Below, in pieces: positions 1,919 to 62,862 of a DNA stretch of 64,000 bases. Within the stretch, counting starts at the first letter, position 1. Each line of letters opens with the position of its first letter. The position numbers and the translations under genes were made by a program. The DNA is from Verrucomicrobiota bacterium (GTDB taxonomy: Bacteria > Verrucomicrobiota > Verrucomicrobiia > Limisphaerales > UBA8199). The notes beneath the pieces are model-generated. The model was not told the DNA's origin, made no database searches, and saw only the letters and a program-made list of their open reading frames with translations. Location: NCBI GenBank assembly GCA_012517205.1, contig JAAYVL010000153.1:24667-88666 (forward strand). The letters run 5' to 3'.

Positions 1919-2093
1919 GAGCCCAACTTGGACGACGGCCAGCCCATTTTCAATCAGATATTGACAGGAATCTACTTTTCGAACGCCTGCCTGGATAACT
2001 CGTCCGCCCAAAGGAACGGCTAAAACTGGACGCAACCTCGCACCCCAAACCCGAATAAAGCCGAAAGCCAACTCCAACCAAATCCTGCCGAAC

Positions 2094-2110
2094 TGTCCAA
2101 TTATTGGACA
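2094..2110. repeat. 17-bp palindrome TGTCCAATTATTGGACA (companion motif, copy 1)
   Basis: 8-bp arms around a central T; identical sequence at 29947-29963. Confidence 0.85.
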
Positions 2111-2198
2111 CTTGCCTGCTTTCGGCCTCAATAGCCATTTCCAATGCCAGATTTCGCCTAACCTGCATAATTTCACGGACATCCATAGATACCAGCTG

Positions 2199-2308
2199 GC
2201 CGTGTACAAGGGGTGTACAAGGGGAGTACAACGGATGCTCAGCAGAGGAACAATGAAAAATCCGTTGTGCATCCGGTGAGCATCCCTTGTACACCCCTTG
2301 TACACGGC
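2199..2308. repeat. Long hairpin repeat, copy 1
   Basis: 25-bp perfect inverted repeat GCCGTGTACAAGGGGTGTACAAGGG (2199-2223) / CCCTTGTACACCCCTTGTACACGGC (2284-2308); related copies at 30051-30151 and 42523-42622. Confidence 0.95.
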
Positions 2309-29628: not shown

Positions 29629-29946
29629 ACGTGGCGCGCCGCGCGGGGCGCGTCCGCCCACGGACCACGCGGCGCACGGCGCTTTGCCGTCCCAATACGC
29701 CCGTCGCCGGGGGAAAAGTCAAACGGATAAGCAATAGCCCTTTACGCCCCCAAGCGCCCCGGATACGGCAAGGATGGTGGGAAATTGGCCTGGAGGCTCG
29801 TCCGGCAGGTGCCGCGATAGCCAGAACCCGCCCAGGCGCAGGCTCGCATTTTTGCGGCGGCAGAAATCCCCCGATGTTTTGCTCAATAGCCCATGTTCGG
29901 AACCGGAATAATGCCAGACGCCGCAACTCACCACCCGTCGCAGAAC

Positions 29947-29963
29947 TGTCCAATTATTGGACA
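29947..29963. repeat. 17-bp palindrome TGTCCAATTATTGGACA (companion motif, copy 2)
   Basis: Identical to 2094-2110. Confidence 0.85.
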
Positions 29964-30050
29964 CTAAGCTGTTTTCGCCCCTGCAAATCCTTCCCAAGGC
30001 CACTTTGAATTTAACCCGCGTAATTTCAGGCCCATAAATAGCCACCAACT

Positions 30051-30151
30051 AGCCGTGTACAAGGGGTGTACAAGGGATGCTCACCGGGAGAACAACAGAA
30101 AATCCGATGGGCATCCGGGGTGCATCCCTTGTACACCCCTTGTACACGGCT
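30051..30151. repeat. Long hairpin repeat, copy 2
   Basis: 30-bp perfect inverted repeat AGCCGTGTACAAGGGGTGTACAAGGGATGC / GCATCCCTTGTACACCCCTTGTACACGGCT. Confidence 0.95.
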
Positions 30152-42154: not shown

Positions 42155-42335
42155 CCCGTTCGCGCGAAAACCGAACTACCGGCAGCCACTGGCCGGCTTT
42201 GCGGCCCGCCCAGCCTGACCGGGTGGCAGGCTGGCGCAACCGCCCCTCGCAAGCCGGCCACGCAACCGGTGGGACATTGACAGCCAAAACCCAAGTGATA
42301 ATGGCTCCAGCAAGTCGCAATTATCGCAGCCGAAC

Positions 42336-42352
42336 TGTGCCAATTTGGCACA
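42336..42352. repeat. 17-bp palindrome TGTGCCAATTTGGCACA (companion motif, copy 3 left)
   Basis: 8-bp arms around central T; reverse complement occurs at 42800-42816. Confidence 0.85.
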
Positions 42353-42522
42353 CCGGCGCGCAGATAGCGCGACGGTTATCGTTGCCCAATCAGCCGCCAA
42401 AAACTTCGGGCATATAAAGCCACTCCGGAACCTCCGATCAGGCGAAGCAACTGCCCCGGCCACCAACCGCGTTCCATTTTAGCCAACTTCACTCCTTACA
42501 GGCTTTTCCCTGGCCAACCTCA

Positions 42523-42622
42523 AGCCGTGTACAAGGGGTGTACAACGGATGCTCATCGGATGTACAAAGGATTTTTCCTTGTAATCCCGGTGAGCATCCG
42601 TTGTACACCCCTTGTACACGGC
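42523..42622. repeat. Long hairpin repeat, copy 3
   Basis: 32-bp perfect inverted repeat GCCGTGTACAAGGGGTGTACAACGGATGCTCA (42524-42555) / TGAGCATCCGTTGTACACCCCTTGTACACGGC (42591-42622), with further pairing inside the loop. Confidence 0.95.
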
Positions 42623-42799
42623 CATATAGTCGGGTGAAAATAGGGTAAATTAGCGGAAATCAGAGGATTGGCTGATAAGACGTGGGGCAGGGGAGCGCCT
42701 GACTGGCTGAGGTGGATTGGGAGGGTATTTTGGATTTGAGGAAGCCTTCGGATGGGGTTTGCGCGTGAGGGTATGCAGGAATGGCCGCAGAGATGAGAG

Positions 42800-42816
42800 T
42801 GTGCCAAATTGGCACA
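42800..42816. repeat. 17-bp palindrome TGTGCCAAATTGGCACA (companion motif, copy 3 right)
   Basis: Exact reverse complement of 42336-42352. Confidence 0.85.
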
Positions 42817-42963
42817 GCTTGGCTGGTGGATTGGAGGGTTGCCCAAGACAAGCAGTATCTGTGGGCCAGAGATCAGCTTCGGTTATCTGGGGGCAAGGAT
42901 CAATGAGCCGTGCTCCAAATTGCCTGGAAGCGCATGGTGGCGAAAAAAAAGCGAAAAAATCTT

Positions 42964-48385: not shown

Positions 48386-51300
48386 GAAGAGAATGCAGCA
48401 TGAAGGATGAAGAATGCAGATTGCCGGGTGTGGCGGCGACCCTTCCGCGCTCCGCGCTCCGCCTCAGGGCCGGTGACAAAGCCGGCGGCGCGCGGGCGTC
48501 CTCGCCCGCTTTGGGCTTGGGGGGGGCGAAAACCAGCCTTTTCGCGCGGAACTGCAGACGGTTTAAGCGGGCGGGGACGCCCGCGCGCCGGCACGATGGG
48601 GACTTCGCCACTGGCCCTGCTCTCCGAGCTCCGCGCTCCGAATGCGGAGTTGCCTTGGTCGTTACCCTGGTGTTGATCACCGTCATCACGTTCATGGCGG
48701 TCACCTTTTTGATCGTCAGCCGCAGCCAGCATGGCGCCGTCGCCACCACCACCGACCAGGCCATCGCGCGCCTGGCGGCCAATGCCGCCCGCGATCGGGC
48801 CATCGTCGAGGCCCTGTCCCGGATGATGGCCCAGACCAACGAATTCAGTTATGGGATGTTGGTGGCCACCAATTACTTCAATCCGCTGGGGTTCGACCCC
48901 GGGGCGGTGCCGCAGGCGTCTCCCAATCCGACCAATGTCAACTACGATTATACGATCACGGGCGCGCCGCTTACTCCGGAACAGCGGCTGCAGAATATCG
49001 CCAACCTGTTATACGCGCCCCGCCCGCCGGTCTTCATCACCAACCGCCTAAGCCAGGCGAATGAGTTTCGGTTCTATCTCGATCTGAACCGCAACGGACT
49101 TCATGATCCCAGCGGTTTGTTGCCGGAAATTAACCCGCTGGGCGGCTTCTACGATTTGAATGGTGATTGGGTTCCTTATGCCTGGCCGCCGCCGTCTGGC
49201 ATCGTGAGCAACTTCTGCATGGGTGACCCGGAATGGATTGGCCTGTTGCAGCGCCCCGAATATGCGCACTCCAGTTCGAACCTCTTTATCGCCCGTTATA
49301 CGTACCTGGTGGTGCCGGCGGGGCAGACGCTGGATATCAATACGATCCATAACGACGCCAAGCTGCGGGTCATGACCGCCCCCGGGGACGGCTTTCTCCG
49401 CAACCAGGGCGTGGGCACTTGGGAAATCAACTTGGCTGCGTTTCTGGCGGACCTCAATACCAACCTTTGGCCAACGACGCCGTTGAATTTCTACAGCTTT
49501 GCACCTTACGCTTATGATGTCAGCTTTCCACCGCTGGCCAATCAGGGAGCGGCATTCGATGACGCTTTCGGCCTGTTGCATTACCGATACGCCACCAATG
49601 TGGACAACCTGGCGAAAGTTCAGGATCTGTTCGGCAACCCCGGGGCGCTCGCGTTCCAGGCTGACTTTGCGGATGTTTACTCCGGCGGTCCGGTGATGGA
49701 CGGGCTTTGGTGGCCGCCGCCCTTCTTCGGTAACATCAACCAGCCCAAGATCAGCCGCGACCCGTGGTCGGGTGGGGATAATCCCAACCGCTACTTTACC
49801 ACGCAGGATTTGTTCGATTCGGCCAAAACCCGGCCCGGCTGGCTTTCCGCGGGGGTGCCGTCTTTTACCGACCGTCTCAAGATGGCGGGAACCAATGTGG
49901 ATTCCTACAACCGCTACACGTTCTACCGCCTGCTTTCCCAGCTCGGCACGGATTCGGCGCCCGAGCCGAGCGGCAAGATGAATCTTAATTACCGCAATGT
50001 GGATGAGCACGGCTATGTGGTGCCGAATATGGTCACCAACTTCATCCCCTGGACGCCGGAACAGTTCTTCACAAATGCTGCCGTGCGGTTGCTGGCGGAT
50101 GCCGGCTATGCGGTTGGTCATGGCCGCAGCACCTCAAACCTGCTGGTTCTGGTCACCAATTCCTTTGGCGGCCGTGGGATCGTGACGACCAATCTCAACA
50201 TTCCGATCTGGCCTACGAATTACTATACCCCCAGCGTGCATCGCCTTTTGCAGCTTGCTGCCAACCTTTACGATGCCACGACCGTCACGAATGAGGCGGG
50301 CACCACGGCGACCGGGATCAAGCTCTCGCTTCCCACCATATTCCGGCCGGTGTTCGCTGGCAACGCGGCCAGCGGGTACATTTCCGTGGTTGGTTATCGT
50401 GAAGTCACCAGTGCGGACACCGCCGACTTGGTTGACAATAGATATGATTTGGTGCGTGATCTGACCGATACCAACGATCTGCCACAGTTTGATCCCGCCC
50501 GGGATATGGCCTACAACGTTCCGCTGGTGATTGGGGCCAAAAAAGGCTTTCCCAACTTTAATGAGTTTGTCCTGCAAACCCAGATTCAGGTTACGCGCAA
50601 GCTGCAGTTCCACCGGCCCGGAGTTTCCACGACCGAACCCGTCAACGAGATTGACCAGATGTTTGTCGTAGGTATTACCAATACGCTGGGGATCGAGGCT
50701 TGGAACTCCTACGCGACCAACTTTCCCCGAGGCCTTACCATGGTGGTTTGGCCGGACATCGGTCTTTATCTCACCAATCGTGAGTCGGGCAAATGGCTCA
50801 ATGAGCCGCCGCTGTTGTCGCGGTATCGGCAGGGAACCCCCGCCGTGAAAACGAATTTCCCCGCGAACTCATGGCCGGGTTATGCTTCGGAATCGCCCAA
50901 GGCGTCTTTTCAAATTCCCCTGGCGTCCAACGTCGTTTTCTTGCCCAAGATGACGTATCGAAGAACGCCGACGGATGGTTTCGTGCCCTTGACCGGCGCG
51001 TTCGAACGCACGATTGGTTCCACCAACTTCTATATCCCCCAATGGAGCGTGAGAGTCAAAGCCCGGCTGCGGTTTGCGCTGGTGGATGACGGGACAGGGC
51101 GGATTGTGGATTATGTGAACCTTGCCGATGATAATTTCCAGGACCTGACGGAGGTTCTCACCCAGGGCGGAAATAATAGTGTGACCTACACGCCCGACGG
51201 CAGAAATGGCAGCATGTGGCTCACCAACCGCATGTATGGCCGGCCGGCAAACGATGTCACCACGGCGACCTTTGGCATTCAAAATCAAATTGAGGCCTGC

Positions 51301-52665: not shown

Positions 52666-55600
52666 ATGCGTTTGCGACCTTTAGGCTGGCTTCTGGTAAG
52701 CGCGCTGTGCTTTGGCGGCGCCTATTATTTCTGGCGGTTGGGAGATCGAACCGTCGCTACTCGGGGAAAGGCCGGGCAAAGATCTCCCGGAGAGGAAGCT
52801 GGAAGCGCTCCTTTCCGCCATGCCGTGGCAACTCCGTTTCAGCTTTTGACGCAGTCCGGCAGCCTCCTTGCCACACAGCCGGGCGCGCCGGCCACGAATC
52901 GTGCGGCCATGACGGCGCGCCACCTGGCTTTGCGCCTGAGTAATACCTCCGCCTCGCTTACGGAGTTGCAGCGCAGCGATCGGGCTATTCTGCTCGAAAA
53001 TGCCTTGCTCGATACCGCCCAGGCCGTCCCTGCCATCCCTGGCCACCTGCGCGCCCAGGGTGATCCGGGCGCTTACCTGGTGCAGGCGCGCGGGCCAGTG
53101 GATAACTCCTTCCGCGCTTTGCTGCGGCAGGCCGGGGCGGAGATTGTATCCTATATCCCGAATAACGCCTTTCTGGTTCGCGCTTCGGCGCAGGTGGCGG
53201 GACAGTTAAAAGCGGCGCCGGGAATGCAGGCGGTTTTGCCTTATGAGCCCTATTACAAGCTGAAGCTGTCCCTTCTCCAGTGCGCGGTGGCGCGGGAACC
53301 CTTGCCCGCCGGTAGCGCGCTGAACGTGCTGCTCTTTGCCGATGCGCGCGAAGCGACGCGCGCAGAATTGGAGAAGCTGGGAGCCCGGATTCTCGGGGAT
53401 GAGGAGCGTACGCCCTTTGGCCCGGTGTTCACCGTGGCGGCCCCTGCCGACAGCCTGGCGGCCATTGCCGGCTTGCCGGGGGTGCAGGAAGTGGAATGGG
53501 CGCAGCGGCGCGCTCTGGCCAATGATTTTAGCCGCGTGGGAATCGGGGTCGCGCCGGACGCGCTCGACACGAATAACTACCTGGGGCTGAGCGGTGCCAA
53601 TGTGCTGGTGAACCTCAATGATTCCGGCGTGGATACGAACCATCCCGATCTCCAGGGGCGGGTGTATTTTGCGGATCCGGCCAGCGGGGTTGATACCAAC
53701 GGCCACGGCACGCACGTGGCTGGCATCATCGCCAGCAGCGGCGGCCAGTCCGAGACCGTGACCAATGCCTCCAGCCCTGCGGGCCCCTATGTTGGTGTCG
53801 GCAACCAGTTTCGTGGCAAGGCTCCCGCCGCCAGCTTGTTTGTGCTGCCCGTCGGTATGGACCTCAAACCGTCCTCCGACGGAGCCACCCTGACCTGGCC
53901 GTCCGACCGCTATTTGCAGGAAACTGCCGTGCGCAGCAATGCCTTCATCGCCAATAACAGTTGGAGTTATGTTGGCAATGATTCCCAGACCTACGACCTG
54001 CACGCCGCCAGCTACGACGCGGCCGTCCGCGATGCCCTCCCCACCGTGCCCGGATCCCAGCCGCTTTTAGTGGTCTTTCCCGCTGGCAACGGCGGCCGCG
54101 GCGATTCCGATGGAACCGGGGGCGAACCCGATTCCATCGCATCGCCGGGGACGGCCAAGAATGTCATCACGGTGGGCGCTGTCGAACAACTGCGCTTGAT
54201 TACGAACGAGACCTGGAAATGCTCAATGGTCAGCACGAACTGCCAGACCAATCAACCGTGGCTCGGCCTTTCGGATGCCACGAACGGGCAGGTCGCCGCT
54301 TTCTCCGGTCGCGGCCCGGTCGGCGTCGGCATCGAGGGCAAGAATGGCCGGTTTAAACCCGACGTAGTGGCGCCCGGCACTTTTGTCATTTCGACCCGCT
54401 CACAGCAGTGGGATACCAATGCCTACTACAACCCCACCAGCAGTATCTGGCGCGTTGAACGGAATATATTGGTTCCCACCAATGACCTTTATCTGGACTG
54501 GATTTTCGTTCCTGAAAACGCCGTGCAGCTTAATGTCTTTGTCTCCCCGAATACCAATTCGCCGGTTCCGTTCCCCGACCTGCCTATTTATATCAACCCG
54601 ACGGACTTCCCGACCAATACCGATCCGGTAATCGGCACCAACTACGTTTCCCTGCCGCCGGCGCTCAACTTGAGCCCGGTGGGTGCCGACTGGTATTATG
54701 GGATAGGCAACTATACCTCACGGCCCGTCCGGTGCGATTTGTGGACGGAGATTGTTGTCACTAACGAGCACGGTAACGAACTGGAGGTGCTGGCCGGGAT
54801 AAACGATTCGCTCGGCCCCTGGTATCGTTATGAGTCAGGCACCAGCCTGGCGGCGGGCGGCGTCTCCGGCACCCTCGCCCTGATGCAGGAATTCTTCGAG
54901 CAGCGTTTAGGGCGGACTAATAGCCCCGCCTTGATGAAGGCGCTGTTAATTAATGGGGCTCGCTCGGTTGGGTCACATTACTTCTTCAGCCCCCGCGGCG
55001 GTGTTAATTCCCAGGGGTGGGGATTGGTCAATTTACCCACCACGTTGCCAGGATCGCTGACCAATGCCAGTCCCACGACCAATGCCATGGTCATGATTGA
55101 CCAAAATCCCGCCGACGCGTTGGCAACCGGCCAATCCCGCACCTATAAAATTTCGCTGTCGCCCTCCGCCCGGCGGGATCCCCTGCGCATCACGCTTGTC
55201 TGGACCGACCCTCCCGGCAATCCGGTTGCCGGCATTAAGCTCGTCAACAACCTGGATTTGGTTGTTACCAATCTCGACAACACGAACTTCGTTTACTACG
55301 GCAATGACATCGCTTCCCGCATGGAGTTTAACGAGGCGTGGGATACCAATCTGGTCGCCAACTTGGACATGGTGAACAATGTCGAGAATGTTTACCTTTC
55401 TCCATCCATGGGGATTGATTCTCAGCTCAGCGAGAACTACTCGATCACGGTGGTGGGACGCCGGGTGAACGTCAATGCCGTCACCGCGCAGACCAATAAT
55501 GTTTGCCAGGATTATGCCCTGGTGATCTCCGGCGGCGATGGGCTCATTACCAATGCGATCAGCTTTGATGCCAGTTCCCCCGTGGTTGCCGATGACCAAC

Positions 55601-58600
55601 CGCTGGTGACCATCATCACTAACAGCTTCACGGGTTCTCCGGACTTCGTTGGTGGCATCTTGTTTAATCAACGGGCCGGGGCCAGTCCGCAATTACTGGG
55701 CACGAATACCATGCCTATTTCCAATGCCGCTAATGCCGTTCTTACTTTCGGGGTGACCAATCAATGGCGCTTCTATGCGATCACCAACGATACGCCTTTT
55801 ACCAACGCTGCCTTTTTGACCTTCCTACCTGCCAACCTTGCCGTGCCACGCGAGGGCGTGTTCCAGCCCAGCGCGGATCGTGCGGCGCGCCCGGAAGCCG
55901 ACATTGACCTTTATGTTGCGCCGCCCAGCATCCCCAATAATGCGGCGCTGACAAACCTGGCTCCGGCGGTGGTGGACGCAGCTACCAAATCGCTTGGCCG
56001 GGGCGGTACGGAGACGATTGTCTATTCCAATGCCATCCCCGGCGTCTATTACCTTGCTGTGAAATCCGAAGACCAACAGGCCGCGGAATACGCGCTGTTG
56101 GGGGTCTTCAGCCGGAATCCGTTTAGCAGTGGCGACAGCAACGGCGTCCACATGATCGGCATTCCCACCCTGCAACCGATTCCGGATGGATCGCCGGAGT
56201 TGCCGGGCGTGGCCAGCATTCTAGGCATCGCCGTTGATAGCCTGATGGTGCGCCGGGTGATTGTGACCAATATTGTCAATCATGAACTGATCGGCGATTT
56301 GATCGCCGGGCTGAGTCATGGCGCCGATTATGCCGTTCTCAATAATCATACCTGCGTGCGGGAAGACGCTTCCGGCCCCTGTCAGGTCCTGACCAGTTAT
56401 ATCTTTGACGACAGCAGCGAACTGAATGTGGGGCCTGACCCCAATTTTCCTTACGTTAATCAATACGTGCAGCATACAGATGGCCCCGGCAGTTTGGATG
56501 CTTTCGCTGGAAAGGATGGCCAGGGCCAGTGGATGCTCACGATGGTGGATAACGCCACCAATCACATCGGCACCAATATTGCCCTGAGCATCTTTTTGGA
56601 ACGCCAGGAAGACCTGACGGGCAATGGCGTTATCGCGACCATCCGAGCCGGAGCCTGTCGCAACGATTTTATTGAAGTGCCCGCCGATGCGATCAGTCTC
56701 ACCGTCACCGTCGCGGTGGTTTCCGCTACGGGGCCGATTGACTACACCATTGAGGTTTGCCCGCTGGCGGGAGGAGGTTGCCAACAAACGGAGGTTACCA
56801 ATGCGCTCGGCGGTGCCGTCACCATTGATCAAACCGATATCCCGCCGCTGCAGGCTGGCACCTATCGGGTGCGCGTCTGCAATCGAGCAACAACGGACAT
56901 CACGGTGAATATCCGCGTGGTCCTGCGCTATTCTTCGCTCACCGTCCACCCTTTTGTCTCCACGAGCATTACCTCGGCCGTGCCCATTCTCGACGATGCG
57001 ATCACCTTTGTCCACCTCACCAACGATACGCACGGCATCATTTCGTCGGTGGACGTCGGCCTGCTCATCAGCGACCCGCGTATCTCCGACCTCGCCATTA
57101 CGCTCATCAGCCCTAACGGCACCCGGGTTTTGCTCTTCGAGAATCGGGGCGCCGACTCCCCGGATGGGATAGGCACCTTCAATCTTGGCACCAACTACTT
57201 CATGCGGCCATTCTACACCAACGACTTCGACCTTGCCCCGGTCGGTCTCTATACCACCGGTGCGGTGTTCCAGGGCTGGAGCGTGGTGAGCAATTTCGTG
57301 GAGGTCTTGGACGACTTCGCCTGCCTCTGCCTCAGCAATCATGTTTTGGGCCTCCTCGACGGGGCGGTTTCCAATGCTCTTCCTACCACCCGTTCTTTGC
57401 TGGCCACCAACGCCAGTCCCTATGCCCTGACGTTCAAAGTTAATCACCTGCCACGACTCGAAGGCATGGTCGCCTGGTGGCCGTTTGATACCGATGGGAC
57501 CGATATCTTCGGCGGCTTCAATGGGTTCCTGTTGGGCAACACAGCTTTTTCCACCGGTCAAACCGCCTCATTTGCGGACGACTTTGATGGCACCGGACTC
57601 AACGCTATCTGGCAGCCTTCCTTGCCCGCCAGCGGCACGGGTGCTGGCGCAACGCCCGTCGTGGCTTACGCCGGTGCGCCCAGCTACACCTTTACGACTG
57701 TTGCTTCAAACACCGTTTTGCGAATGTCCAATACTCTCGGCCCCTGGCAGCGGCGCGGATGGAGTTCGGATACCATTTTCGTGGGGCAGGATTTTCGCTA
57801 TGAAGTCCGTTTTAACACCCTGGCTCAGGGAGCGGGAATCAGCGCGGGCGGGTTTGTCGAAATCTGGGTGTTGGATGCGGCCAATCCCAATCGCTTCGAT
57901 GTCCTTTCTCCTTTTGGCGGCGAATTTGGCACCAATCGCGTCCTGCTGGCGGGCAGCAGCATAGATAGCTCATTCAACACACTTGCCTTCAACTTCCAGG
58001 GTCATACTTGGTACCGGTTGGTGCTGTCCGCCGCACCCAATCAGGGCGTGCGCGCGGCGGTGCTGAATGACAGCGGCGTGGAACTGGCCGGGACTTCCTT
58101 CATTCACGGGGCGGCAGCTTTCGGATCCGGTTTCCGGATTGGCCTTTCCCAATTTGTGGCGGCGGGCGTCGTTCCCGCCCCAGTGGATGTGGCGTTGGAT
58201 TCGATCCGGGTGACGAGCGGGTTGTCGGGCAAGGTCAATCAGGCCTGCTTTGGTGATGGTATCGCCACGCGCATGATCGTTCCACGCTGCCCCGAACTGG
58301 ACCTCGGCTTGCGTCGCGGCTTTAGCATTGAAGGCTGGATTAACCCCGTCAACGTTGGTCGATCGGCGCCATTGGCAGAATGGTATGATCCCGTGCCGCC
58401 CACTAACCAACCCTCGACGGGAGTTCAATTCTGGCTGGCTCTGACTAATGGTGCTGGTTCACTTGGCGCGTTGATTTGGGACACCAATTCCCAGCCCCAT
58501 GTGGTCTCGTCTCCGCCTGGAGTGATTACGAATTCCGGCTGGCAGCATGTCGCACTTACCTACGACACTAACAGCGGTCTAGCCGCCCTGTATGTCAACG

Positions 58601-61600
58601 GCCTCACCAACAACCAACCGCTGGTAGCCACCAACTTAGGTATTTTCGTGCCTCGCACTTCCGGTGATCTGTATTTCGGCTTCGACCCAACTGTCCTGCC
58701 TGTGCCGATCAACTATATTAACTTCCTCTCTCTCGCCGGGCTTAACCTGGCTGGTAGTGCCGGGCAAACTGGAGCCGTCTTGCGGCTCACCGCCGCGGCC
58801 GATAGTTTGGTAGGCGGAGCGTTTGCTTCCAAGAAGCAGTTGTGCGCCACCGGCTTCGATACGCGTTTTCAGTTCCAAATCACGAGCCCCGGGGCTCGTC
58901 CGGGAACCACTCCCGGCGGGGATGGATTCATGTTCACGGTGCAGAATCTCGGGCCCAATGATTCCGGCTGGCACCCGCCTCCCACGCCCGTCAACAATTA
59001 CGTGGGTGTGTTCTTTAACACCTTCCTCAACTGGCCGGGCTGCACTAACTATACTGAGTGCGATGTCAGCTCTAACGCGGTCGGCATCGTTTCCAATGGA
59101 TTGTACGTGGCCCAGACCGATTTGACTCCCTTGGGCATCAATCTGAAGGATGGTGCTGTCCACGCAGCCCATATCGCCTTTGATGGCGAAGCCTTGACGG
59201 TTTGGCTGGATGGCGTGATGGTGTTGACCAATGTGCCCGTGCCGGGACTGGCCACGGCTGTGGATGCTGCCGGCTACGCCTGGGTGGGATTTGGAGCGGG
59301 AACGGGCTGGGCGTGGGAAAACCATGATATCCTGAGCTGGACTTTTGGTGGCCCGACGCCAGGCACTTCGTTTGCCGGCGGACTGGATGAGTTTAGTGTC
59401 TATGGCCGCGCCCTTTCTCCCTGCGAGGTCAATGCCATTTACAACGCCGGCAGTCACGGCAAATATGGCACCAATGCGCTCATCTGCCCGGTTGTAACGG
59501 AAGTTACCTTGTCCAACAGTCTGTCGGGGACGCAGGTTTTCACTTTCACCAACGGACTGGACTGGGCTGTCAATGGTCCGCGTTGGGAAACCAATACCAT
59601 TGCTTTTTCCTCCTCCACCAATCCAACGGCGATCACTCTCCGCGGGCTCAACCCATATGATTCGAATGATCCCAACGCCCCTAATAACCTCAATGTCATG
59701 GTGGACGATTTCGTCCTGTCTGAACTGGTCCCGCAAACATTTGATGGGTTACTGCACTTCTCTGAAAATACCAATCTGGCCACCATTCCGATCAAGTTTG
59801 CGCCCGCTCCGTTCTTGGCGTCAAACTTCCCGCCCGTGCTCGTTTTCTCCAATGATTTCGTTTGGGCTACGTCCGGCGTTTACCAGGCGGGCGAGATCAT
59901 CGCCGGAAATCCGAACAGTCCCGGGGTCGGCCAACGGGACTGGACCGTTATAGCCAGTCCGGTTTCCGTCGTCAGCAATGCGTTCCTGGCTCCGACTCTG
60001 ACCAACTGGCTGGCTATGGCGACCGGTGCCGTGCAGTGCTTGCTTCCGACCATCCCCGGGCATCGTTATGAGCTAAGCTACAATCTGCGTGGCCCCTGTG
60101 CTGTCGGTTGGTGGGATGGCTCGGTTGACCCGCTGAGCCGGCGTGCCCGCGATATTATTGGCGGCAATCATGGTGCATTCATCAATTCCGCCACCACGAC
60201 ACCCGCCGGATACGTCAACGACCGGAACGCTTCCGAAGCGCTCTGGTTCCCAGGCATTCCGTGGCCGACGACCAATTCCCCCTGGTATGCTTTTGCTCCC
60301 AAAATCGAGTTGGGTGATCCGGCCAACCTTCACTTCACCAACTCGTTCACCATCGAAGGCTGGATCAATTCTGTCCCACATCATACCAACGACATCGGGG
60401 TCTCCACTCTCCAACAGATATTTTTCCGGGGTGACTCCCGAGACTGCCGCGATCCATACTACCTGGCCTTGCAGTGGCACCGCACTTGGGAGTTCGATTT
60501 GATCTTTCATGTCGAAGGCGCCAATAGCCCCGGCTGCGGGGTATCGCTGATCACCACGAATCACCCGGTCAAAACCAACACCTGGATGCATGTGGCCGCC
60601 GTCTTCGAGGCCAATGTGCCATGGGCGCCCAACGCACCCTGGCCCACCAATGAGTTGCGCCTTTACCTCGATGGCCAACTGCTCACCAATGTTTTCCTTT
60701 CCGATCCGGCTTTGGGAGCGATCGAATCTTCTTTCACGGGCGAATCTCCCTTCGCGGATCTGGCTGCGTCCTACCAACCCGGCATCACCATTGGCAATAG
60801 CAGCCGCTACGACAACTACGAACCTTTCTGCGGATATATTGATGAGCTGTCAGTTTACGCGCGTGCCCTCACTGCCCCAGAAATCGTTGCTATTGCCGCC
60901 GCGGGAACTGTCGGCAAGGCCGATCTTTCCGTCCCGGTGGCCCAAAGCCTGGCCCGGGTTAACGTGTCCGTGGACGGCAAACAACTTGGAATTGGCTATG
61001 GCGACAATTCCCGCTGGAGCAATCACACATTGGAGTTCACCGCGTTGGGGACGAACGCGATTCTCACTCTGCAAAGCCTCCTCCCGGGGACTTTGTTGGC
61101 TGACGTGACGCTCACTGAATTAGCTCCGGAACTATACTACTTGCCCGAGGAATCATTGGCCGATCTCGCGGGTGAAGACATGTTCGGCATTTGGACGCTA
61201 GAGATTTGGGACAATCGGATGGGGCCAGGAACCAACAATGCGCAGTTGGTCGACTGGGTGCTCAACCTTGGTTTGGCCCCGAGCAATCCGCCCCCGGTCA
61301 TTACTCTCGCCCATGGGCTGCCTTATACGAACTCCTTGCCGGCCCACGGCATTCAGTATTTTGTGATTCCAACACCACAGTGGGCGCTGCTGGCAACCAA
61401 TGTTTTGCAATTCGCGCAGCAAGTCCGCACGGGTAATCCGCTGCCGCTTACCGTTCTCTTTAATCAAACCAACTTTCCTGCGCCCGGAGACTTCCCGTTG
61501 TTGGGGCCGCTGGTATCGGCCGGGGTCGCCACTCTGAACTCCAACAGCACGCCGCTCTTGATACCCGGCCAGACTTACTATCTCGCCGTGACTAACCCCA

Positions 61601-62862
61601 ATCCCGTCGGCATCACCTTCGCTCTCGGAGTCTGGTTTGACATCACCACTCTTCCCAACTGTCAACTGGTCGTTTCCAACCTCGTCAGCCCGGCAGGCAT
61701 TCCGCGCTACTTCCAGTTTGATGTTCTTCCGAATGCTGCCACCCCCGGTCTGCCACCCGAATCGGTGGCGTTCTGGCTCTCGGGTGCCGATTGCAATCTT
61801 AAAGTGGTCTTGAGCGAACACTTGCCGTTGCCAGATCTCAATCATTATGACTACATCAGCCAGCAGCCTTGCACGAACATTCAGGTAATCATGCTGGTCA
61901 CTAACTACACGCCTTTCCCCATCCAAACCAATCGCTGGTACGTCGGCGTCTTTAATACTGGTCCCACCAACATGTTCGTTGACGTCCAGGCCTGCTACAC
62001 TACCAATTCTCCGGTTATTATTCCTCTGACCAACGGGGTTCCTTTCGTCGTTCCTTTCACCAATAGCCTGTTTGCCGCTCCTCCTGGGCCACCTCGTTGG
62101 TTCTTCTTCGAGTTCCAGGTTACCAATTCCGTCCCCGGAGTTCTGTTTGAACTCTACAATCTCTCCGGCGATGCTGATCTGCTGCTCCAGCAGAATGTGC
62201 CGCCCACGATGGCACCGTATTTCAGCAGCAGTTTCTTCTCGGGACGCAACGCTGAACAGATTGTCGTGCGCACTTCTGCGACGCGCCCGGCTTCCACTGC
62301 CTTCTCCGATTTGCGTGGCCACTGGTACTTGGGTGTTTATAACTACGAAGATGCAAATGTGACCTATACCATCCGTGCAATGTTGCCCAACGACGATGGT
62401 CTCCTGTCTAGTGCGCTGCCGCTCCGCCTTTCGGTCACTTCTCTGGCATTCCCCCGCGGCCTGGTGCTGAGTTGGAACTCGGTCGTTGGCGAGCGCTACA
62501 TCGTCCAATACACGCCCAGCATTGCCGCTCCAGTCATTTGGACCAATGTGGGAGCGGTCACTGCTACTACCACGTTGACCACCTTCGAGGTGCTTCCGAT
62601 CAAGACCGGCGGTTTCTACCGTGTAGTCCAGATTTTCGACTTCCAACCGCGGCTTAAAATACAACTTTCCACCACCAACCAGGTTCGTATTTCGTGGCCC
62701 ACCCTTTTCTCTGGATACACGCTCCAGTACAAACTGGGACTCTTCGGAACGTGGACTAATGTTGCCTTTCCACCGGCAACCGGTGTATTCACGATCGGGG
62801 ACGAGTTTGTGGTCTATGACCCCATCGGCCCTGTGCCCAAATACTACCGGTTAATCAAATAG
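52666..62862 (+). CDS. Giant exported S8 (subtilisin-like) protease with P-domain-like, LamG/ConA-like and C-terminal beta modules (3398 aa)
   Basis: Catalytic blocks NLNDSGVDTNHPDL / VDTNGHGTHVAGIIASS / ESGTSLAAGGVSGTLALMQEF; FSIEGWINPVN and FTIEGWINSVP LamG motifs; FGIWTLEIWDNRMG P-domain-like motif. Confidence 0.9.
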   Translation: MRLRPLGWLLVSALCFGGAYYFWRLGDRTVATRGKAGQRSPGEEAGSAPFRHAVATPFQLLTQSGSLLATQPGAPATNRAAMTARHLALRLSNTSASLTELQRSDRAILLENALLDTAQAVPAIPGHLRAQGDPGAYLVQARGPVDNSFRALLRQAGAEIVSYIPNNAFLVRASAQVAGQLKAAPGMQAVLPYEPYYKLKLSLLQCAVAREPLPAGSALNVLLFADAREATRAELEKLGARILGDEERTPFGPVFTVAAPADSLAAIAGLPGVQEVEWAQRRALANDFSRVGIGVAPDALDTNNYLGLSGANVLVNLNDSGVDTNHPDLQGRVYFADPASGVDTNGHGTHVAGIIASSGGQSETVTNASSPAGPYVGVGNQFRGKAPAASLFVLPVGMDLKPSSDGATLTWPSDRYLQETAVRSNAFIANNSWSYVGNDSQTYDLHAASYDAAVRDALPTVPGSQPLLVVFPAGNGGRGDSDGTGGEPDSIASPGTAKNVITVGAVEQLRLITNETWKCSMVSTNCQTNQPWLGLSDATNGQVAAFSGRGPVGVGIEGKNGRFKPDVVAPGTFVISTRSQQWDTNAYYNPTSSIWRVERNILVPTNDLYLDWIFVPENAVQLNVFVSPNTNSPVPFPDLPIYINPTDFPTNTDPVIGTNYVSLPPALNLSPVGADWYYGIGNYTSRPVRCDLWTEIVVTNEHGNELEVLAGINDSLGPWYRYESGTSLAAGGVSGTLALMQEFFEQRLGRTNSPALMKALLINGARSVGSHYFFSPRGGVNSQGWGLVNLPTTLPGSLTNASPTTNAMVMIDQNPADALATGQSRTYKISLSPSARRDPLRITLVWTDPPGNPVAGIKLVNNLDLVVTNLDNTNFVYYGNDIASRMEFNEAWDTNLVANLDMVNNVENVYLSPSMGIDSQLSENYSITVVGRRVNVNAVTAQTNNVCQDYALVISGGDGLITNAISFDASSPVVADDQPLVTIITNSFTGSPDFVGGILFNQRAGASPQLLGTNTMPISNAANAVLTFGVTNQWRFYAITNDTPFTNAAFLTFLPANLAVPREGVFQPSADRAARPEADIDLYVAPPSIPNNAALTNLAPAVVDAATKSLGRGGTETIVYSNAIPGVYYLAVKSEDQQAAEYALLGVFSRNPFSSGDSNGVHMIGIPTLQPIPDGSPELPGVASILGIAVDSLMVRRVIVTNIVNHELIGDLIAGLSHGADYAVLNNHTCVREDASGPCQVLTSYIFDDSSELNVGPDPNFPYVNQYVQHTDGPGSLDAFAGKDGQGQWMLTMVDNATNHIGTNIALSIFLERQEDLTGNGVIATIRAGACRNDFIEVPADAISLTVTVAVVSATGPIDYTIEVCPLAGGGCQQTEVTNALGGAVTIDQTDIPPLQAGTYRVRVCNRATTDITVNIRVVLRYSSLTVHPFVSTSITSAVPILDDAITFVHLTNDTHGIISSVDVGLLISDPRISDLAITLISPNGTRVLLFENRGADSPDGIGTFNLGTNYFMRPFYTNDFDLAPVGLYTTGAVFQGWSVVSNFVEVLDDFACLCLSNHVLGLLDGAVSNALPTTRSLLATNASPYALTFKVNHLPRLEGMVAWWPFDTDGTDIFGGFNGFLLGNTAFSTGQTASFADDFDGTGLNAIWQPSLPASGTGAGATPVVAYAGAPSYTFTTVASNTVLRMSNTLGPWQRRGWSSDTIFVGQDFRYEVRFNTLAQGAGISAGGFVEIWVLDAANPNRFDVLSPFGGEFGTNRVLLAGSSIDSSFNTLAFNFQGHTWYRLVLSAAPNQGVRAAVLNDSGVELAGTSFIHGAAAFGSGFRIGLSQFVAAGVVPAPVDVALDSIRVTSGLSGKVNQACFGDGIATRMIVPRCPELDLGLRRGFSIEGWINPVNVGRSAPLAEWYDPVPPTNQPSTGVQFWLALTNGAGSLGALIWDTNSQPHVVSSPPGVITNSGWQHVALTYDTNSGLAALYVNGLTNNQPLVATNLGIFVPRTSGDLYFGFDPTVLPVPINYINFLSLAGLNLAGSAGQTGAVLRLTAAADSLVGGAFASKKQLCATGFDTRFQFQITSPGARPGTTPGGDGFMFTVQNLGPNDSGWHPPPTPVNNYVGVFFNTFLNWPGCTNYTECDVSSNAVGIVSNGLYVAQTDLTPLGINLKDGAVHAAHIAFDGEALTVWLDGVMVLTNVPVPGLATAVDAAGYAWVGFGAGTGWAWENHDILSWTFGGPTPGTSFAGGLDEFSVYGRALSPCEVNAIYNAGSHGKYGTNALICPVVTEVTLSNSLSGTQVFTFTNGLDWAVNGPRWETNTIAFSSSTNPTAITLRGLNPYDSNDPNAPNNLNVMVDDFVLSELVPQTFDGLLHFSENTNLATIPIKFAPAPFLASNFPPVLVFSNDFVWATSGVYQAGEIIAGNPNSPGVGQRDWTVIASPVSVVSNAFLAPTLTNWLAMATGAVQCLLPTIPGHRYELSYNLRGPCAVGWWDGSVDPLSRRARDIIGGNHGAFINSATTTPAGYVNDRNASEALWFPGIPWPTTNSPWYAFAPKIELGDPANLHFTNSFTIEGWINSVPHHTNDIGVSTLQQIFFRGDSRDCRDPYYLALQWHRTWEFDLIFHVEGANSPGCGVSLITTNHPVKTNTWMHVAAVFEANVPWAPNAPWPTNELRLYLDGQLLTNVFLSDPALGAIESSFTGESPFADLAASYQPGITIGNSSRYDNYEPFCGYIDELSVYARALTAPEIVAIAAAGTVGKADLSVPVAQSLARVNVSVDGKQLGIGYGDNSRWSNHTLEFTALGTNAILTLQSLLPGTLLADVTLTELAPELYYLPEESLADLAGEDMFGIWTLEIWDNRMGPGTNNAQLVDWVLNLGLAPSNPPPVITLAHGLPYTNSLPAHGIQYFVIPTPQWALLATNVLQFAQQVRTGNPLPLTVLFNQTNFPAPGDFPLLGPLVSAGVATLNSNSTPLLIPGQTYYLAVTNPNPVGITFALGVWFDITTLPNCQLVVSNLVSPAGIPRYFQFDVLPNAATPGLPPESVAFWLSGADCNLKVVLSEHLPLPDLNHYDYISQQPCTNIQVIMLVTNYTPFPIQTNRWYVGVFNTGPTNMFVDVQACYTTNSPVIIPLTNGVPFVVPFTNSLFAAPPGPPRWFFFEFQVTNSVPGVLFELYNLSGDADLLLQQNVPPTMAPYFSSSFFSGRNAEQIVVRTSATRPASTAFSDLRGHWYLGVYNYEDANVTYTIRAMLPNDDGLLSSALPLRLSVTSLAFPRGLVLSWNSVVGERYIVQYTPSIAAPVIWTNVGAVTATTTLTTFEVLPIKTGGFYRVVQIFDFQPRLKIQLSTTNQVRISWPTLFSGYTLQYKLGLFGTWTNVAFPPATGVFTIGDEFVVYDPIGPVPKYYRLIK

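Follow-up and report, generated by a model that had tools for sequence, protein, structure and literature searches.

A palindrome of about 100 bp recurs three times in the window, as we call the whole 64,000-nt stretch of DNA analyzed here, and raises the question of what this repeat is and what keeps its arms matched. The initial annotation had described three near-perfect hairpins with compensatory changes and had proposed a mobile or REP/MITE-like element, a structured RNA, or a DNA-binding or chromosome-organizing site under selection for palindromy. All three hairpins were found at the places given for them and are far from chance: the window contains 14 occurrences of GTGTACAAGG (at most one mismatch) compared with 1.9 expected, a count reached in 0 of 100 shuffles, and 12 of the 14 occurrences fall inside the hairpins. 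As read, the arms span 2199-2308, 30051-30151 and 42524-42622; the coordinates of the first two copies stand, while the start of the third had been placed one base early, at 42523. Direct reading confirmed perfect outer arms of 25, 30 and 32 bp as well as the absence of a T-tract, and the tandem unit of about 11 bp is borne out by an arm autocorrelation of 0.69/0.63 at lag 11 versus 0.13-0.36 at the other lags from 5 to 20. Each hairpin folds as a single long stem, with predicted energies of -84, -79 and -76 kcal/mol for the strands of copies 1, 2 and 3 (z = -18, -13 and -12). The features are as follows, palindromes C and G being parts of larger elements described below.

2200..2307, no strand: copy 1, palindrome core of 108 bp (the 97-bp architecture with an additional 11-bp unit in the left arm)
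30053..30149, no strand: copy 2, 97-bp palindrome core
42525..42621, no strand: copy 3, 97-bp palindrome core (the feature under study)
42527..42548, + strand: copy 3, left arm units 1-2 (GTGTACAAGGG GTGTACAACGG)
42598..42619, - strand: copy 3, right arm units 1-2, inverted
2092..2115 (C91:26758-26781), - strand: palindrome C (GTGTCCAATAATTGGACAGTT), accessory to the class II element that surrounds copy 1
29945..29968 (C91:54611-54634), - strand: palindrome C, accessory to the class II element that surrounds copy 2
42327..42353, + strand: outer repeat on the left side of the copy 3 element, containing palindrome G (AACTGTGCCAATTTGGCACA)
42799..42825, - strand: outer repeat (palindrome G) on the right side of the copy 3 element

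The two outer repeats around copy 3 are 93% complementary to each other, and the hairpin is centered between them. Elsewhere in the window, an open reading frame of 3398 aa occupies 52666-62862 on the + strand, and a 26-bp GC-rich inverted repeat (48486-48511 / 48565-48590; 96% complementary, 53 nt apart) lies inside a 1423-aa open reading frame.

Copy number and architecture

A genome-wide search with the arm GTGTACAAGGGGTGTACAA (up to three mismatches) returned 167 and 165 matches on the two strands, compared with none for a reversed-pattern control. These 332 matches rule out a family limited to the three copies of the window and correspond to about 165 elements, nearly all found via sequence patterns, in a 3.6-Mb genome of the freshwater Verrucomicrobia type (93% complete, 181 contigs). 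Among 100 extracted copies, the core measured 97 bp in 93 and 108 bp in seven. The 97-bp form, which runs CCGTGTACAAGG...CCTTGTACACGG, consists of CC, four 11-bp units, a 5-bp center, four inverted units and GG, and the 108-bp form carries one further 11-bp unit. The unit consensus is RTGYWCANSGG, with GTGTACAAGGG in the outermost two units. Arms occur almost only as pairs at fixed spacing, and on some sides the raised lag-11 autocorrelation extends 60-100 bp into the flanks.

Intergenic placement within larger elements

Intergenic placement was complete in the sample examined, as all 100 extracted copies lay outside the genes predicted by our own simple codon-usage gene caller. There are at least two kinds of larger, MITE-like context: sorting by flanks assigned 53 of them to class I, 30 to class II and 17 to neither. 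Class I copies are nested in MITE-like elements of about 0.6-0.8 kb (from -264 or -407 on the left to about +254 on the right) with terminal inverted repeats TTAGCCGGAACGATTCAG / CTGAATCGTTCCGGCTAA flanked by TA on both sides, a flank that is equally expected from a terminal inverted repeat ending in TA; a search with these repeats returned mostly hairpin elements, plus a few other matches. Class II is marked by further 17-bp palindromes; palindrome C often lies at +109 or +126 and palindrome G roughly 150-265 bp out on one or both sides. A hairpin was also present at each of four additional C sites and at one additional G pair that were followed up. The window copies are class II-like, copies 1 and 2 having palindrome C and copy 3 two G repeats. 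No target-site duplication was seen in class II, and no empty site was seen.

Class II copies were flanked by divergent genes in 13, co-directional genes in 13 and convergent genes in one of 27 cases, and the orientation of class I neighbors looks random. An enrichment of class II near promoters was rejected because the intergenic sequence of the window likewise lies for the most part between divergent or co-directional genes, and a function as transcription terminator was rejected on the absence of a T-tract and the rarity of convergent neighbors. No common function and no regulon was visible among the neighbors of ten class II copies. Outside the hairpins, TGTACA occurs twice compared with nine times expected by base composition; a genome depleted of TGTACA was discarded as an explanation, since several other palindromic hexamers are low as well.

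Two end sequences related to each other, starting TTGTGTCCGTCAAGTTC and GTGTCCTAAAAGTTC, were observed near hairpins and often at contig ends (L030, L033, L056, L057, L060, L084, L102, L113 and L130); these are possibly the ends of insertion sequences that insert near hairpins.

Pairing and the structured-RNA reading

If the palindrome were transcribed in 5' or 3' UTRs or as small RNAs and selected for pairing, as a structured RNA would be, compensatory changes should be found in its stem. The G-C to C-G swap reported between copies 2 and 3 is real and corresponds to core pair 22/76, but it is a minor variant and no sign of pervasive covariation: over 92 distinct copies this pair is GC in 80, CG in five and something else in seven (CC in four, GG, AC and GT in one each, that is six unpaired and one GU wobble). 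When 66 copies were aligned together with their 12-bp flanks, the covariation score of the whole structure was 0.111 versus 0.085 (0 of 500 shuffles, relatedness being retained in the control), which favors the RNA reading together with the folding z-scores of the three window copies and an A25-T73 to G25-C73 change between L185 and L189. The covariation is, however, concentrated in a variable 11-bp outer extension of the stem (columns 1-11 with 111-121), where compensatory changes are frequent and clear, while the core holds few; the refuting outcome of no covariation is thus borne out in part. Core arms also pair no better with their own partner than with arms of different copies (0.980/0.980, 0.931/0.926 and 0.647/0.682 for own-arm/cross-element pairing), inner pairs drift to C-A or A-C, and 20 of the 48 aligned pairs never vary, so that sequence and not pairing alone is kept. 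Further points against an RNA are the frequent position of class II between divergent genes, the missing T-tract, and an Rfam search in which only tRNAs matched at the gathering threshold and the hairpin had no match. Taken together, a structured RNA appears improbable.

Conservation of the outer units and age of the copies

Divergence from the consensus was determined in two samples collected independently of the arms, 74 copies via the center motif and 16 via palindrome C. Units 1-2 diverge by only 0.2-0.3% and 0-0.3%, respectively, unit 3 by 3-5%, unit 4 and the center by 4-30%, and the flanks by 23-50%, the class II share of which is partly loss of homology and makes the contrast an upper bound. 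Five ortholog pairs from contigs of close relatives showed changes at 3 of 240 positions in units 1-2, 9 of 110 in unit 3, 13 of 135 in the inner part and 332 of 5082 in the flanks (Fisher P = 0.0002 for units 1-2 versus flanks). Two of the three changes in units 1-2 are adjacent, between L122 and L191, and bring the right arm of L122 into agreement with its left arm. This paired change looks templated, as quasipalindrome template switching, a mechanism treated in PMC7202029 and PMC8604942, would give. Gene conversion is unlikely as a cause of the invariance because the center between two invariant arms diverges freely.

The five hairpins tested in relatives all occupy the same locus in the genome under study, with the palindrome kept. 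Flank identity between paralogs does not exceed 88% (median of the best matches 80% in class I; the L107/L120 pair left aside), compared with about 93-95% for orthologs; hence no recent transposition is seen, and the paralog flanks predate the ortholog split. L107 (C43) and L120 (C72) are two contig ends sharing a class I copy whose flanks are 98% identical and probably represent one locus assembled twice. By these comparisons, the copies look old, fixed in place and constrained in the exact sequence of units 1-2.

Arm invariance could also be transpositional in origin, if a transposase recognized units 1-2 of a still-mobile non-autonomous element and only copies with intact arms spread. The inverted repeats expected at the ends of a MITE are present (TTAGCCGGAACGATTCAG...CTGAATCGTTCCGGCTAA in class I, inverted palindrome G in class II), copies are dispersed and intergenic, and contig breaks are frequent near them, all in keeping with such an element. 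Yet recent paralogs are lacking beyond the one contig-end pair, all five sites are common to relatives, the copies found by palindrome C include none with decayed arms, the invariant arms do not coincide with the ends of the elements, and no transposase with matching ends was found. Ongoing mobility is thus a doubtful explanation, although the one among the alternatives that we take most seriously. What stands of the mobile or MITE-like proposal is its historical part, to which dispersal, intergenic placement, nesting and terminal inverted repeats with TA all point; recent movement and a cognate transposase were not found.

Comparison with known repeat families

The family shares high copy number, intergenic location and palindromy with the GTAG/CGTC REPs and REPINs, some REPs lying inside longer palindromes (PMC3733652, PMC3116915), and GTAG REPs have been reported in the verrucomicrobium O. 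terrae (PMC3733652). A REP/REPIN-type repeat would be spread by a RAYT (Y1) transposase, and three Y1_Tnp genes exceed the curated cut-off in this genome (G000): L040 (C98), L041 (C173) and L042 (C1). Only L042 has a hairpin nearby, about 1 kb away and on one side only, and with one hairpin per ~22 kb a chance neighbor is not unlikely. No hairpin lies within about 1.5 kb of L040 or L041; these are surrounded by repeated short palindromes of their own types (CACCCCTGACGGGGTTGG-like and GCCCCAACGGGGC-like), which suggests separate RAYT/REP families. No cognate RAYT flanked by the present repeat was found, and the 97-bp core lacks the terminal GTAG or CGTC tag of the 20-40-bp REP palindromes, whose length it exceeds two to five times. 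The REP-like label is therefore not supported, and spread by a RAYT is very unlikely.

Resemblance is also found to the enterobacterial repeats ERIC/RU-1 (127 bp) and YPAL/RU-2 (168 bp), which are thought to be non-autonomous MITE-like elements (PMC2267715, PMC2759123). Like these, the present repeats are dispersed intergenic palindromes in the range of 100-170 bp that form a long stem-loop and number tens to hundreds per genome. Compared by description, they differ in their 11-bp units and in the invariance of units 1-2 amid diverged flanks, as well as in being nested in two larger element types and belonging to another phylum. No description of the present palindrome family was found in the literature searched. 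DNA uptake sequences have a smaller size and occur in much larger numbers. Pairs of them (Hin-1, Nem-4 and Pam-1; PMC2267715) likewise have a near-invariant short motif in inverted orientation, while the arms described here exist almost exclusively as fixed-spacing pairs in about 165 copies.

Distribution in relatives and association with gene X

The exact palindrome pattern was present in five of 321 genomes of the order, G000 included. Two of the five, G102 and G112, represent misbinned relatives of G000, which leaves G008 and G010 with few copies each. In the GTDB collection, scanning picked up five contigs, three in Verrucomicrobia MAGs (one named subdivision 3) and two misbinned. Spread to other phyla or families was rejected, since the contigs of G006, G102 and G112 and those filed under Chloroflexota, Lentisphaerae and other families are misbinned from the G000 organism or close relatives (L192, JALHHX010000281.1; L191, JAKQFH010000085.1; G006:C238; G102:C118; G112:C10/C72/C88) and are 92-100% identical to G000 over the aligned length, genes included. 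High copy number is confined to one Verrucomicrobia-type lineage.

In G008, G012 and contig C4 of G000, 11-bp arrays or hairpins follow the tail of a protein of ~226 aa, X, lying at most about 150 nt downstream of it or in frame with it (L036, L037, L207, L196 and L172). X carries the conserved motif EDIM(V/L)FGQAPCSxGR and had no Pfam, NCBIfam or significant PHROG match. Viral origin was rejected, as no viral contig contained the arm motif or gene X and X was without phage or plasmid match. The arrays at the tail of X would fit an origin of the hairpins in the 3' region of a multi-copy gene X to which the 11-bp array belongs, but no X gene lies closer than about 1.5 kb to the other hairpins examined, the array at L038 has no X, and X itself matches no family; such an origin is highly improbable. 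It is conceivable, if speculative, that the ~165 two-fold-symmetric sites constitute a lineage-specific system for a protein reading 11-bp-phased units (TGTACAAGG), and that they were recruited from a mobile element of ancient origin, the 11-bp arrays of which still adjoin X genes in related genera.

Proposed origin and maintenance

With a probability of roughly one half, we interpret the family as an old dispersed MITE-like palindromic repeat that no longer moves and whose units are kept by selection as putative protein sites. The copies would have spread long ago as non-autonomous MITE-like elements and would now be fixed in position. Judged from sequence comparison, they are probably kept by sequence-specific selection at the DNA level as a putative protein-binding site. 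Among the proposals of the initial annotation, a DNA-binding or chromosome-organizing site is thus the best supported, by the conservation of units 1-2. Selection for palindromy does not suffice by itself, as conservation extends beyond pairing to the exact sequence. A sequence-specific DNA-binding protein may use units 1-2 and thereby keep the copies, given that an 11-bp spacing puts the tandem units on approximately the same helix face and that inversion of the two halves provides two-fold symmetry. As a secondary process, template-switch (quasipalindrome) correction may keep the arms matched and would account for at least one paired change. Candidate benefits include nucleoid organization, transcriptional insulation or control of a mobile element.

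Palindromic repeats of bacteria are frequently taken to be selfish or neutral. A frozen core amid drifted flanks and center, combined with orthologous sites, allows selection on a dispersed repeat to be measured at individual sites, and the two 11-bp units or the 97-bp duplex offer a defined DNA bait for seeking the putative protein.
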